Virus record (IMG/VR): IMGVR_UViG_3300032315_000210
Location: 1-36,957 of that record
Reading direction: 5' to 3' (one strand)
Origin: a virus
Length of the DNA stretch: 36,957 nucleotides
This document shows positions 9,091-19,265 of the stretch, one piece after another. The translations under genes and the position numbers were made by a program. Positions within the stretch are counted from its first letter, which is position 1, and each line of letters starts with the position of its first letter. The notes under the pieces were generated by a model. It worked only from the letters and a program-made list of their open reading frames with translations, had not been told where the DNA came from and searched no databases.

Positions 9091-9114
9091 AAATACAAAA
9101 ATTGTTCCCTAAAA

Positions 9115-11857: not shown

Positions 11858-11892
11858 ACTATAGGGTTTTTGTTCCCTAGTAATATATCAGA

Positions 11893-13822: not shown

Positions 13823-13842
13823 ATATTATAGTCCTTTGTTCC

Positions 13843-14190
13843 CTAGCCCCAATAAGCCTGTTGACCGACAAGGGCAACAGTTCCAGTTGCATTAGGGAAA
13901 GTAATAGTTCGGTCAGCAGTAGGGTCTGTAACTGTCAGAAATGTTTCAAAAGCATTATCTGTTGAACCTTCAAAACGAATCATATGACCCGTAGGTAATT
14001 CAATACCATGAATAATAGTAGGAACACTTTCACCAGCATTTAAACCAATAGCAGCAATGCTGGCAGCCAAAGAACTAACAGTAATCTTTTTAGTAGTAGT
14101 AGCACTAGTATCCACAATAGGCAAAACATCAGTTGAGGCAGCATCAATAGAGGTCAATTCCGTCAACTGTGAAATCTTAAGGTCAGCCAT
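13843..14190 (-). CDS. Tail fibre protein, 115 aa
   Basis: KISQLTELTSIDAASTDVLPIVDTS at the N-terminus and the C-terminal TLTV-type block 'TVTDPTADRTITFPNATGTVAL' are standard building blocks of tail fibres in aquatic phages. This is a short version, probably a fibre segment or adaptor joining the distal fibre to the tail. It overlaps the preceding gene by one base (TAATG). Confidence 0.65.
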   Translation of the reverse strand: MADLKISQLTELTSIDAASTDVLPIVDTSATTTKKITVSSLAASIAAIGLNAGESVPTIIHGIELPTGHMIRFEGSTDNAFETFLTVTDPTADRTITFPNATGTVALVGQQAYWG

Positions 14191-14486
14191 TATACATTAC
14201 CTACTTCCAACAACATAAAAGACCCATCTTCTAGTAGCAAATCGTTCCCTAATTCATCCTCTAGGTTGGAAACCGAGAAGTCAGGGTCAGACCAAAAATT
14301 GTTTACTAGGTCACCTAAAGTGGTGCCCGTAGCACCCTGAGAAACATAATAGTCAAACTGAAGAGAACCACGAAAACCCAAACCGACATTAGACCAATGG
14401 GCATACAACAAATCACCCAAAGTGTCACCAACCGTAGGATACATAGCCTTCAAGGCGACATACATGGCATCATTGGTTGTTGTCAT
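14190..14486 (-). CDS. Small tail-region protein, 98 aa
   Basis: Function not recognised. The C-terminus NDLLLEDGSFMLLEVGNV is a short acidic/hydrophobic repeat that recurs in phage tail-tip and fibre proteins. An aromatic-rich N-terminal half (AMYVALKAMYPTVGDTLGDLLYAHW) suggests a compact helical domain. It overlaps the terminase small subunit gene by 17 bases. Confidence 0.55.
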   Translation of the reverse strand: MTTTNDAMYVALKAMYPTVGDTLGDLLYAHWSNVGLGFRGSLQFDYYVSQGATGTTLGDLVNNFWSDPDFSVSNLEDELGNDLLLEDGSFMLLEVGNV

Positions 14487-14940
14487 CGCTAGCCTTTATT
14501 GTTCTGGTTTCCAAACGGAAACGCTGTTCCGAAGCCGCATTAGCGGCAATTAACTCCGCTAACTCTATATCAGACAACTCGCTGGCTTTACCACTATGTT
14601 CAACCTGAAGTTGAACTGGAGCCAAACGACCAGTAGCCTGTAGATACAGTTTAGCCGAATTGTTATCCCCCTCAAGAGCACGCTGGAATAGATTGTCCAG
14701 CAAAGTTTGTGTTCTTTCGGGTGACTGTTGAAGTTCATTAACACGGCGTTCCCATTCTTGTTTGAACGCTGGTTTCTTTTTCCATCGTCTAAGGGTGGTT
14801 TCGTCCACGCCTTCAGTTTTGGCATATTGGTTTTGGCTGGATGGCACCCTGCCGTTAGCAGGTGTGCATAGCCAGTTTAAAAACTTTTCTTGCCTAGCAT
14901 CTAGGGTGAGTTCGGTGCTTTCTGACATTCTATAGAACAC
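14470..14940 (-). CDS. terS: Putative terminase small subunit
   Basis: 156 residues from GTG 14940, which has AGGGA about seven bases upstream; ATG 14928 is an alternative. The N-terminal part (about 15-60) is a helix-turn-helix of the type that recognises DNA (KFLNWLCTPANGRVPSSQNQYAK then TTLRRWKKKPAFKQEWERR), followed by helices for oligomerisation (LLDNLFQRALEGDNNSAKLYLQ). This is the usual build of small terminase subunits that mark phage DNA for packaging. It is the first gene of the late unit and is far from terL, which is unusual. Confidence 0.7.
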   Translation of the reverse strand: MFYRMSESTELTLDARQEKFLNWLCTPANGRVPSSQNQYAKTEGVDETTLRRWKKKPAFKQEWERRVNELQQSPERTQTLLDNLFQRALEGDNNSAKLYLQATGRLAPVQLQVEHSGKASELSDIELAELIAANAASEQRFRLETRTIKASDDNNQ

Positions 14941-14956
14941 CGCATGTTCCCTAGTG

Positions 14957-15000
14957 TGTTACAGTTGTGTTAAATATTTGTTACAGTTTTGTTACAACTT
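14957..15000 (-). repeat. Four TGTAACA-type repeats at 11-bp spacing (left array)
   Basis: On the plus strand GTTA begins at 14958, 14969, 14980 and 14991, exactly 11 bp apart; read on the minus strand the units are TTGTAACAAAA, CTGTAACAAAT, ATTTAACACAA and CTGTAACACAC. The third is degenerate. The array lies about 20 bases upstream of the first late gene, in its leader or operator. The same unit occurs four times at the same period, inverted, at 16114-16153. Confidence 0.85.
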
Positions 15001-15008
15001 TAGGTTGT

Positions 15009-15036
15009 TTCATACTGGCATTAGGTTTTCTGTAAA
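15009..15036 (-). promoter_or_regulatory. Candidate late-unit promoter
   Basis: Reading the minus strand, TTTACA (15036-15031) and TATGAA (15014-15009) are separated by 16 bases, a sigma-70-like pair. Transcription would start near 15002 and the TGTAACA array would fall in the first bases of the message, where a regulator bound there could control the late genes. Only moderate matches to consensus. Confidence 0.35.
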
Positions 15037-15212
15037 CTTGTATTGAACTTGTATAGGGAACAGCAGGTTTTTAGTATGGGGGGTAACAGGGGGGACTCAA
15101 CCTGTTGGTTTCGTCCCACAAACGCCAGTGTAGTGGGGCGTTAACCGAGATAATCTATTATAAAATATAATATACAAGAAACCATGTTTAGCGTGGACAA
15201 AAGGGATGGGTG
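15037..15212. other. Intergenic divergent control region
   Basis: Gene-free stretch between the late and early units (with the two features above it spans 14941-15212). It contains a plus-strand TAGGGAACA at 15054-15062, two G6 runs separated by TAACA (about 15077-15094), an inverted pair CAGGTT/AACCTG (15064-15104), a hairpin AACGCC/GGCGTT (15121-15142) and an AT-rich block (15151-15174) with a TATAAT at 15166-15171 that could be the -10 of an early promoter. No gene is supported apart from a nine-codon frame at 15184. Confidence 0.5.
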
Positions 15213-15341
15213 ATGAAAACATTGGTTGTTATTGTAGGGACAGCGTTTTTTACATTTGGTTCAATAGCGTTGTTTACTAGGGCTGTGTTTAAAGCGTTTG
15301 ATGGTATTGATTATGATTGGGATGAGTATGACCGTAAGTGA
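15213..15341 (+). CDS. Small single-span membrane protein, 42 aa
   Basis: ATG 15213 has AAGGGA eight bases upstream. Residues about 3-24 (TLVVIVGTAFFTFGSIALF) are one membrane helix; the short tail is acidic (DGIDYDWDEYDRK). It is the first gene of the plus-strand unit. Early phage membrane peptides often alter host physiology, but no family is recognised. Confidence 0.6.
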   Translation: MKTLVVIVGTAFFTFGSIALFTRAVFKAFDGIDYDWDEYDRK

Positions 15342-15399
15342 CCAAGATAGAGTATTGCTAAAGTTACTTGCTAAGCGTAAGCCGAAGCCAAAGAAGTAA
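15328..15399 (+). CDS. Possible 23-aa basic peptide
   Basis: The frame starts at ATG 15328 inside the end of the previous gene and stops at TAA 15397-15399, whose last A begins the next ATG (TAATG). The peptide ends KRKPKPKK. Its only support is tight coupling on both sides; it may simply be a translational bridge. Confidence 0.35.
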   Translation: MTVSDQDRVLLKLLAKRKPKPKK

Positions 15400-15794
15400 T
15401 GGGTTACACTAAACCTGAACTGAGAAAGCGGATTGTGTCAGCCGTTAAGGCTGGAACATCTGGTGGTAAGGCTGGACAGTGGTCAGCCCGTAAAGCACAG
15501 ATAGTGGCGCAACGCTATGAGAAGGCTGGTGGTGGTTACACTGGTGCGAAAACCAAGGCTCAGTCCAATCTGAGTAAATGGACTAAAGAGAAATGGACTA
15601 CATCAGATGGGAAACCTGCTATTAGAACAGGTGGCACGACACGATACCTACCTAAGAAGGCATGGTCTGAACTTTCGCCGAAACAAAAGCAGGCAACAAA
15701 TAGCAAGAAACTACAAGCGTCTAAAAAAGGTAAACAGTTTGTGGCGAATACACCAGCAGCAAAGAAGGCTGGAAAGAAAGCAAGGACAGCATAA
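15399..15794 (+). CDS. DUF5872-domain protein
   Basis: 131 residues and strongly basic. The whole length matches the pattern of the DUF5872 family: PELRKRIVSAVKAGTSGG, GQWSARKAQIVAQRYEKAGGGY, a KWTKEKW block and RYLPKKAW. The family occurs in phages, giant viruses and scattered bacteria; I know of no established function. The Lys-rich C-terminus suggests nucleic acid contact. It is joined by one-base overlap to the gene before it and by a TAATG-type overlap to the gene after it. Confidence 0.75.
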   Translation: MGYTKPELRKRIVSAVKAGTSGGKAGQWSARKAQIVAQRYEKAGGGYTGAKTKAQSNLSKWTKEKWTTSDGKPAIRTGGTTRYLPKKAWSELSPKQKQATNSKKLQASKKGKQFVANTPAAKKAGKKARTA

Positions 15795-16111
15795 TGGCAA
15801 CATCTAAGCGTGACCCACGGCTAGCACGAGCAGGAGTTAGCGGTTACAACAAGCCAAAGCGCACACCTAGCCATCCTACTAAGTCACATATTGTTGTAGC
15901 CCGTAGTGGTGGTACAGTTAAAACCATTAGGTTTGGTCAGCAGGGTGTTAAAACTAATCAGACTGCTGGACAACGCAAAGCGTTTAAGTCCCGTCACGCA
16001 TCAAATATCTCTAGAGGACCTCTGTCCGCTGCCTACTGGGCAGATAAAGTAAAGTGGTCACCATCAAAGACTAGTCAACCCCGTAACCAGAAGTGGGTTA
16101 AGGGTTCATAA
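15794..16111 (+). CDS. Conserved basic phage protein, 105 aa
   Basis: Opening RDPRLARAGVSGYNKPKRTP followed by SHIVVARSGGTVKTIRFGQQG and the C-terminal SAAYWADKVKW match a small basic protein often found in aquatic phages and next to DUF5872-type genes. Function is not known to me. High Lys/Arg/Ser content suggests DNA or RNA binding. It closes the first early cassette: the second repeat array and a strong terminator follow at once. Confidence 0.65.
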   Translation: MATSKRDPRLARAGVSGYNKPKRTPSHPTKSHIVVARSGGTVKTIRFGQQGVKTNQTAGQRKAFKSRHASNISRGPLSAAYWADKVKWSPSKTSQPRNQKWVKGS

Positions 16112-16113
16112 TT

Positions 16114-16153
16114 CTGTAACACTACTGTAACATTCCCGTAACATTACTGTAAC
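16114..16153 (+). repeat. Four TGTAACA-type repeats at 11-bp spacing (right array)
   Basis: GTAAC occurs at 16116, 16127, 16138 and 16149, exactly 11 bp apart, in units CTGTAACACTA, CTGTAACATTC, CCGTAACATTA and CTGTAACAAAC. It begins three bases after a stop codon and abuts the terminator hairpin. Unit sequence, copy number and period match the left array at 14957-15000, which is in the opposite orientation. Confidence 0.9.
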
Positions 16154-16179
16154 AAACCACCCCTAGCGGGGTGGTTTTT
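16154..16179 (+). terminator. Rho-independent terminator
   Basis: A perfect 10-bp stem, AAACCACCCC with GGGGTGGTTT, with a TAGC loop, followed by TT then CTATAT. It ends the first early cassette. Placement directly behind four phased repeats suggests that a bound factor could affect termination here. Confidence 0.85.
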
Positions 16180-16764
16180 CTATATACAACACTATATGAA
16201 ATAAGGGTCCCAACCTATCAGACCCCCACCCCATGTGACCAAAGTCATAGCATAGACAAGCCATATAACACCACAATCCCAAAACTGCCCTCTGGCTCTA
16301 TCGTCATAGAGTACCAGACAGAGCGAGCCGTAGCCCCCCCCATGCGCCCCCCCGTCCGCATTGGGACTGGAAATCCTTGTATCCATTGCGTGGGCGGACC
16401 CGAACGCACCTTAACCCCAACTTTTTTGCTGTTACATGCAGGCGGGCGGGTACTAGCGGAGCAGACTACTATTTTGGGCTGTCATATCCTGCGGGGGCGG
16501 GCGTGAGCGTCAAAGAAGGAATTGCAACGGTTCAGCGATGAACACACATTCATTCACACATGTTAGTGTGTGGGTGAGGGCGTGTGCGTCAAAGAGGGAT
16601 TGTGTCGTTCGGTGTTGCCGAGCGACTTGGTGTTCACACACACTCTAGTGGGTGGGTGTGAGCGTCAAAGAGGGAATGTTGTGGTGGTTGCGACATGGTG
16701 TTGCGACATTAGATGTCCGTGAACGGACAGCCACGAGTTATGCCGATTAGTCTGGGAGGACATC
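16180..16764. other. Gene-free early control region with three stem-loop/CGTCAAAGAGG elements
   Basis: No convincing gene. A 111-codon frame at 16171-16506 begins inside the terminator and has unrelated composition. The stretch has long C and G runs (about 16334-16351 and 16491-16499), a compound hairpin TCTGG/CCAGA around TCTAT/ATAGA (16291-16318), a small hairpin TGTCCG-TGAA-CGGACA (16714-16729), and three copies of GCGTCAAAGARGG at 16507, 16586 and 16662, about 77 bp apart. Copies two and three are preceded by CACACA/TGTGTG-type stems (16555-16572 and 16634-16661). It probably carries the promoters of the main early unit. Confidence 0.55.
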
Positions 16765-17007
16765 ATGGCACGCAAGAAATTAGCAGTAGTTGTAATGGGT
16801 CGTTACGCAAAGTGCGACAAGTGGTGGACGGTTGCGTTTGATAACGCTACCGAAGTGTTGGAGACTGGTACGGTTGTGGATGTTCGTAAGGTGGACGGAA
16901 GCGAGCAGAAGGTCATCGTGCAGGCTTTGATTGCATCGTCAATCGTGGAGTCGGACACGCAGAACCCAACATTGTTCTACACTTACACGAAGGTGTCGGG
17001 CAAGTAG
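16765..17007 (+). CDS. Hypothetical early protein, 80 aa
   Basis: Starts at ATG 16765 with GGGAGGACATC upstream, a strong ribosome site. The protein is a mix of short strands (KLAVVVMGRY, QKVIVQALI) with no recognised motif. It is the first gene of the main early unit and its stop codon is four bases before the hammerhead ribozyme, so its message would be cut just behind the coding region. Confidence 0.6.
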   Translation: MARKKLAVVVMGRYAKCDKWWTVAFDNATEVLETGTVVDVRKVDGSEQKVIVQALIASSIVESDTQNPTLFYTYTKVSGK

Positions 17008-17945: not shown

Positions 17946-19265
17946 ATGGCTGGGAAAGCAAACATTGTGGTGAGCATTAATTGCGCCACGAAGAAAGCAA
18001 TAACGAAATACAGTGAGGCTGGTCGTGAGATAGAGAACGAGTTACGCTATCTAGACCGCAACACGCTAATCAAGGTGGCAGGCTTACTTGGGCACAAGTT
18101 CGTTGGCAAGTCACCGTTGTCCTATACACAGTACGAGTTGCGTAACTTGTGCAATGAGAAGATGGAAGGTCGTACCGACATTGTGTTGGGTGCTGGTTCT
18201 CGTCCTGCGGTTCCGTCACCTGTGGTGACACAACCTAATCCGATTCTTCGTACTACGGAGCCTGTCCGTGTTACACCATCGGGTGTTGAGGATGCGTTGC
18301 GTAATGTTATCACCGAGGCTATGTCCGCTTACACCGAGAGTGGCGTGGACAAGGAAGTGGTCAATGGTATTGTTGCCGAGGCGATTAGTAATCATGCGAT
18401 TGCTGTCAAGGCACAGATTGACCATCTCACACGGGTTATCCGTGAGTCTAAGCCTGAGGTGATACAGATTGACCTAACGGGTGGTGTCACTCGTAAGGTT
18501 GAGGGTCGTACACATTACCTGTTCCCGAAGGTGCTCAAGGTTGTGAACGCTGGGTTGTCGCCTTGGATTACTGGCACGGCTGGTGTTGGTAAGACGATGA
18601 TGGCAGAACAGATTGCATATGCGTTGGGTCTGGAATATTCACCAGAGTCGTTCTGTTCACAGTCGTCCAAGTCGGAAATCAAAGGCTATAAGGATGGTCA
18701 CGGGTTGTATCAGTCAGTGGAGTTCCGCCAACGCTTTGAGCATGGCGGAGTGTACCTGCTAGATGAGATTGATGCCGCTAATCCGAACATCCTGCTTACG
18801 CTGAACAGTGCGTTGTCCAACGGTTGGATGATGTTCCCTGATGGTAAGGTCAAGCGTCACGAGAAGTTCGTGGCGATTGCCTCTGCGAACACATACGGCA
18901 ACGGTGCTACAGCCGAGTATGTTGGTCGTCAGGTGATTGATGGTTCCACGCTTAATAGATTCGTCAAGATGGATATGCAGATTGATGAGGTTATGGAGGC
19001 TGGTATCGTTGGTGACCTTAGTGTGGACGCTGATGCTGGTAGGTCATGGTTGAACATTGTGCGTAAGGCAAGAAGCAATGTCTCTGCTCATGGTCTTAAG
19101 GTTATCGTGTCACCACGAGACTCATATCATGGTGCACGGTTGCTTAACACTGGGTTCACATTCCAAGAGTGTGTGCCGATGACCTTTGCCAGTGGGCTTA
19201 AGCCTGAGCAGTTCGCTAAGGTGATGGAAGGTGTTACTGTCCCATCGGGTGGTGCTACACTATAA
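17946..19265 (+). CDS. AAA+ ATPase, CobS/MoxR-like
   Basis: 439 residues from ATG 17946, preceded by AGGAGG at eight bases. An N-terminal half of unknown fold (1-170) precedes the ATPase: Walker A GTAGVGKT (210-217), Walker B LLDEID (271-276), sensor ASAN (312-315), and LNRF (336-339). The layout matches the AAA_5/CobS type often found in aquatic phages. Members usually act with a VWA-domain partner to remodel a metal-binding or DNA-associated complex. The gene behind the next one is the candidate partner. The target in the phage cycle is not known. Confidence 0.8.
   Translation: MAGKANIVVSINCATKKAITKYSEAGREIENELRYLDRNTLIKVAGLLGHKFVGKSPLSYTQYELRNLCNEKMEGRTDIVLGAGSRPAVPSPVVTQPNPILRTTEPVRVTPSGVEDALRNVITEAMSAYTESGVDKEVVNGIVAEAISNHAIAVKAQIDHLTRVIRESKPEVIQIDLTGGVTRKVEGRTHYLFPKVLKVVNAGLSPWITGTAGVGKTMMAEQIAYALGLEYSPESFCSQSSKSEIKGYKDGHGLYQSVEFRQRFEHGGVYLLDEIDAANPNILLTLNSALSNGWMMFPDGKVKRHEKFVAIASANTYGNGATAEYVGRQVIDGSTLNRFVKMDMQIDEVMEAGIVGDLSVDADAGRSWLNIVRKARSNVSAHGLKVIVSPRDSYHGARLLNTGFTFQECVPMTFASGLKPEQFAKVMEGVTVPSGGATL

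Follow-up and report, generated by a model that had tools for sequence, protein, structure and literature searches.

We find two inverted arrays of four TGTNACA-like half-sites, each at an exact 11-bp step, in the 36,957-nt stretch of viral DNA analysed here, which we call the window (the whole of IMG/VR record IMGVR_UViG_3300032315_000210). One array immediately precedes the small terminase gene and the other faces the early genes. We give even chances to the reading that they are a pair of operators facing outward, by which a regulator of the host controls the late/packaging unit and, probably, the early unit as well. The ends of the window carry a 123-bp direct terminal repeat, and the window is therefore probably a complete circularised phage contig of ~36.8 kb.

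Two phased arrays and the genes around them

The left array (14957-14996, minus strand) points to the small terminase gene and reads TGTAACA-AAAC-TGTAACA-AATA-TTTAACA-CAAC-TGTAACA on the strand of that gene, and the right array (16115-16154, plus strand) points to the early genes and reads TGTAACA-CTAC-TGTAACA-TTCC-CGTAACA-TTAC-TGTAACA. The sequence-only reading, which placed GTTA at 14958, 14969, 14980 and 14991 and GTAAC at 16116, 16127, 16138 and 16149, had these coordinates exactly right, and its four sites per array at an exact 11-bp step are confirmed by TRF, which reports both arrays as period-11 tandem repeats independently of any motif search. Scored as four TGTNACA units at 11 bp, each array reaches 23 of 24, against a best score of 18 in 60 order-1 shuffles of the window and of 19 in the real window at other periods from 8 to 21; the same 11-bp scan finds no third array in the window. 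The statement that the units share CTGTAACA was slightly overstated, this 8-mer being exact in two of the four left units and three of the four right ones. Isolated TGTAACA words are frequent across the window; it is the phased arrays alone that are exceptional. In both arrays the weak unit is the third, one base off in each and with the 3' AACA retained.

The gene terS for the small terminase subunit (14470-14925, minus strand, ATG start; PF13022 E 2e-8, phrog_2538 E 1.5e-8; a longer GTG-start ORF reaches 14940) is the first of a leftward late unit that continues with genes including those for the large terminase, portal and capsid, and the left array sits just upstream of it. Beyond the right array, the rightward genes encode, among others, an AAA ATPase, a DnaB-like helicase, a primase of the AEP type and a RusA nuclease. 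With late genes to the left and early genes to the right, the arrays thus head, and point toward, two outward-going units. Between them lie a DUF5872-like gene (15399-15794, plus strand; PF19197 at 26.2 bits, below the Pfam cut-off of 27.5) and the gene of a second small basic protein (15794-16111, plus strand; phrog_7595 E 1e-31, a family of unassigned function). The right array lies, as the earlier reading had it, between the stop of the latter gene and an intrinsic-terminator-like hairpin that abuts the array (16154-16185, plus strand; 10-bp stem and T tract). This hairpin is kept in relatives; the region as a whole is not enriched in such hairpins (4 versus 3.0 expected). An Rfam search and a tRNA scan gave no matches.

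Several further elements surround the arrays. A TAGGGAACA element lies between the left array and terS (14945-14953, minus strand) and an inverted copy on the far side of the array (15054-15062, plus strand). The element recurs shortly upstream of late gene starts at 1390-1398, 9103-9111, 11871-11879 and 13837-13845, and the five minus-strand cases read lie 13-16 nt ahead of an ATG; allowing up to one mismatch, the window holds 18 matches versus 8.1 expected. The SAS/ESAS elements of cluster K mycobacteriophages, in which SAS is a 13-bp GGGATAGGAGCCC in non-structural genes, are likewise described as short repeats that closely precede start codons, some of them accompanied by additional inverted elements upstream (PMC3203893), whereas the comparable element of the window occurs in late genes and is separate from the 11-bp array. 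An inverted GGGAAC/GTTCCC pair flanks the left array (14936-15071), and a comparable GGGACA/TGTCCC pair brackets the arrays of two other phages (L401 and L257). Three 31-nt direct repeats with a GCGTCAAAGA core, 76-79 bp apart at 16490-16675 in a long non-coding stretch, are retained in G01 and G02, with fewer or none in other relatives, and may be promoters or the iterons of an origin.

A C6-N5-C6 tract pair also lies upstream of the left array (15078-15094, minus strand), and each of the 18 relatives compared, array-bearing or not, has a counterpart of it. A second, inverted pair (CCCCCCC-ATGC-like; 16334-16353, plus strand) has a counterpart in most relatives compared. These pairs may be a cos/packaging mark or a transcription element. 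Contigs of several relatives end 34-151 bp upstream of terS with no common base, and because these ends fall at no single base, a physical cos end is unsupported.

Conservation in relatives and the array reader

We retrieved 80 terS relatives among the IMG/VR matches listed, 78 of them scorable (L123 and L146 are too short). Left-array scores are bimodal: the four-unit score is at least 20 of 24 in 37 relatives and below 17 in 41, with none at 17-19. Type A relatives (L081-L100) carry the window's four units; type C relatives (L102-L119) have up to six or seven, the last three of which align with type A units 2-4; type B relatives (L120-L160) have no left array; and in L101 and L107 it has decayed. 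An ACAAGTT direct repeat, also at an 11-bp step (15035-15052, minus strand), is present in most type A and type B relatives and absent in type C. In the 19 rows of the type A alignment, changes fall in the spacers and flanks, and the units are conserved. This conservation shows that the array sites are under selection. Unit 3 is TTTAACA or ATTAACA in every type A row (unit 2 is damaged in L094), and the retention of this weak unit across type A fits a directional binder. The suggestion that a protein lines up on one face of the DNA is supported by the conservation of the sites. Among 18 whole or partial records, a two-unit pattern occurs in 11; ten of these bear arrays, and the other, of type B, has one stray unit pair at 19209. 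Two further records used in the comparisons, G018 and G001, are fragments.

The right array varies more among relatives than the left, and most relatives carry the left array only. Four right-hand sites, some degenerate, are found in the window, L081, L082, L083, L084, L086 and L107; one or two remain in L091, L092, L094, L095 and L101; and the array is absent from L087-L089, where the second gene between the arrays lies at the same place and is 96% identical. Type B rows reach the next gene and were hence left out of the losses beside the terminator. Loss of the motif with retention of the genes, which the sequence-only reading had named as evidence against itself, is seen at the right array and in type B overall, but not at the left array in the window's own clade.

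These comparisons leave very little room for two other proposals of that reading, an RNA-binding antiterminator acting on a leader motif and the borders of a mobile gene cassette, together highly improbable in our estimate. The positions of the arrays, in a leader and before a terminator, would suit them. An RNA reader is contradicted by type C, in which several units are TGTTACA or TGTCACA instead of TGTAACA on the same sense strand, with the outer TGT/ACA and the 11-bp step unchanged, so that the sense-strand sequence is not conserved between type A and type C. Nor are arrays and cassette gained and lost together: L087-L089 keep the cassette gene without the right array, and type B has the cassette genes, in reversed order, without any array.

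A packaging site is the next candidate, the left array being read by the small terminase as a cosB- or pac-like element. In phage lambda, the cosB repeats lie beside the small terminase gene. SPP1 pac repeats are also described as adjoining that gene (PMC4737164), as the left array does directly upstream of terS, amid the C-tract pair and the inverted GGGAAC elements; arrays also precede the diverged PF13022-like and Terminase_2 small terminases described below. In cosB/pac systems, unlike here, the small terminase would be expected to track its motif. The TerS helix-turn-helix around ETTLRRWKKKPAFK is near-identical in the window, which has the array, in L107, where it has decayed, and in L121, L133 and L137, which have none, and TerS is therefore an unlikely reader as judged from these proteins. 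Conversely, the TerS helices of L401, L257, L304 and L322 are very unlike these although all four phages have the motif, so the motif does not follow the recognition helix. Only the left array adjoins terS, many arrays of other phages are at non-terminase genes, and the DNA-binding domain of SF6 TerS is reported to be little specific for pac repeats (PMC4737164). We regard a packaging site as improbable, though less so than an antiterminator or cassette borders.

Similar arrays in other phages

Two blind pattern scans of IMG/VR returned at least 219 arrays (loci L196-L402). Among the matches listed in the first scan, 118 of 126 arrays with period 11 fall outside ORFs of at least 100 amino acids, compared with 20 of 129 listed period-12 control arrays, a control that informs on location and not on number because it consists mostly of coding repeats and itself lists at least 129. 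A TerS model derived from the window gave at least 22 matches above the inclusion threshold on array loci, 14 from the window's clade and eight diverged. In seven of the eight the array is upstream of, and near, the terS start (in L379 it is not adjacent), and the diverged TerS proteins of L401, L257, L304 and L322 match PF13022 below the Pfam cut-off. Small terminases of the Terminase_2 family adjoin arrays in L321 and L249, and proteins with an L321-like start follow arrays in L323, L331, L380, L382, L391 and L398. Array-adjoining terminases thus belong to two Pfam families, PF13022-like and Terminase_2, in unrelated phages. Many other arrays, among the matches listed, precede non-terminase genes.

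Promoter-like sequences recur at set distances from these arrays. Among the matches listed, 47 of 106 TATAAT occurrences in 350 flanks lie at a preferred 37-38 or 47-50 bp from the last unit, placements that are not independent events because the contigs are related, and a TTTACA-like -35 often falls between the last unit and TATAAT. The contig G022 has two arrays: one precedes terS, and the other ends 8 bp short of a promoter-like TTGACA-17-TACAAT sequence. In the window, a candidate -10, TATATG (16193-16198, plus strand), lies 38 bp past the last unit of the right array, an offset that recurs for TATAAT in the other phages; it is suggestive only, being weak and without a -35, the hairpin occupying that region. 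Ahead of terS, the type A alignment (19 rows) has no conserved -10 downstream of the left array, and the spacing of array and gene is not constant among type A relatives.

Several array-bearing contigs appear to be T4-like, given their CobS/CobT-type neighbours and TATAAATA late-promoter-like sites. In L326, L371 and related T4-like contigs, TGTAACA units 1, 2 and 4 come directly after TATAAATA sites, in the leader. In L207, L219, L228 and L230, arrays of TGTTACA, TGTNACA or TGTAACA lie beside a gene of ~380 aa that we named integrase-like by eye. The cultured phage HTVC008M, which has CobS and peptidase genes like those neighbouring the arrays, carries none with a score of at least 20. TerS and one array-neighbour protein gave no match in cultured phages. 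The nearest TerL is that of an uncultured spring phage, MW202803 (51%), with no array within the 8-kb stretch examined.

A candidate host regulator and its consequences

The arrays most closely resemble operators of the OmpR/PhoB family of response regulators (WalR/VicR box, OmpR sites, Pho box, ArcA box), which share 7-bp TGTNACA-like half-sites, an 11-bp step, exact in both arrays, and two to five tandem units. The reported VicR/WalR half-sites are TGTWAHA-N4-TGTWAHA (PMC4168254) and the OmpR site is given as TGTWACAW (PMC3586657); the TGTWACA-N4 units here fit both published consensuses. ArcA is described as binding three to five repeats at 11 bp, four of which give a 44-bp footprint (PMC3798270). 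GlnR sites are given as GTnAC-n6-GTnAC, with four-site a-b-a-b boxes (PMC10704036), so that the GlnR/MtrA boxes of Actinobacteria are alike in both spacing and four-site layout; the GaAAC b-site of S. coelicolor has no match here. What sets the arrays apart from known OmpR/PhoB operators is their place in phage DNA at a terminase/late unit, their exactly four sites and a putative binder that the phage does not encode.

The DNA-binding domain PF00486 (Trans_reg_C) is absent from all 11 window-clade records and from all 13 other array records searched, several of them fragments, and was found in 10 of 14 control genomes. As no such regulator is encoded by the phage or its relatives, a host protein is the most likely binder. 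Each array would then be a four-half-site operator on which monomers line up head to tail, one every 11 bp, with two tandem dimers of an OmpR/PhoB-family regulator covering ~44 bp. The left array would serve terS and the leftward late/packaging unit and the right array the rightward early genes, and the arrays would be inverted because each points along the transcription unit beyond it. Phosphorylation-dependent binding by the host protein could tune both units to host state. Expression of the late unit may depend on promoter elements of another kind, perhaps together with a sigma-region-4-like phage protein (27018-27392, weak matches). The motif, its period, its conservation, the lack of an encoded regulator and the recurrence in other phages are observed; which protein binds, that it comes from the host, whether it activates or represses and which promoters it serves are inferences. 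TGTNACA would suit many regulators that are unrelated to one another, and the sites are close to palindromes. We count against a host regulator that several close relatives have lost all or part of the right array, that the left array has no conserved -10, that its distance to terS varies and that HTVC008M has no array scoring at least 20. A host search with the major capsid protein in bacterial and archaeal genomes matched a single MAG contig, labelled 'Euryarchaeota' (56% identity), which has no array and was not accepted as host.

The strongest competitor, to which we assign about one chance in four, is a phage-encoded regulator of another fold that binds the arrays and switches early to late transcription. 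Its leading candidate is a predicted all-beta protein of 80 aa (16765-17007, plus strand), the first gene past the long non-coding stretch, with homologs in 10 of 10 array records and in 0 of 8 records without terS arrays, a split repeated among terS loci. This split follows early-region phylogeny, so the co-occurrence amounts to one or few events. The AlphaFold model of the protein is all-beta, without a helix (mean pLDDT 80.5), and has no PDB match at E<=0.001, and its HMM found no member near the arrays of other phages, in loci that are partial.

An architectural or filament-forming protein (BldC-like, Xis-like or a nucleoid protein) that bends the DNA between the arrays would account for two helically phased arrays 1.1 kb apart. 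We hold it to be rather less probable than a packaging site: most relatives carry the left array alone, the HTH_17 family is absent in 13 of 13 records searched, and BldC repeats are reported at 9 bp (PMC5859096).

Repeats of 11 bp also make up parC, the centromere bound by ParR. Among the subset of window proteins scanned there was no ParR/ParM-type partition gene.

For a host regulator there is precedent. Cyanophage genes, P-SSM2 pstS and those of S-PM2d, are described as controlled by host PhoB, which binds some phage promoters, so that a host two-component regulator acts on phage genes as proposed here; the same account cautions that boxes predicted in phages cannot be relied on until binding has been tested (PMC10976474). 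The cyanobacterial Pho box is of another sequence (PMC10976474), and packaging/late-unit arrays are not known to be part of that system. Host control of phage genes is thus known in cyanophages, and a four-site operator at the packaging/late unit is what differs here; we found no published description of such a layout in the open-access literature that we searched. We propose only tentatively that four-site host response-regulator operators before terminase/late and early units are a recurrent, independently acquired control element of phages. If so, a host two-component system would gate packaging and virion production by host physiology, TGTNACA every 11 bp outside genes would be a simple signature for such phage promoters in metagenomes, and commitment to virion production would be a readout of the nutrient or stress state of the host.
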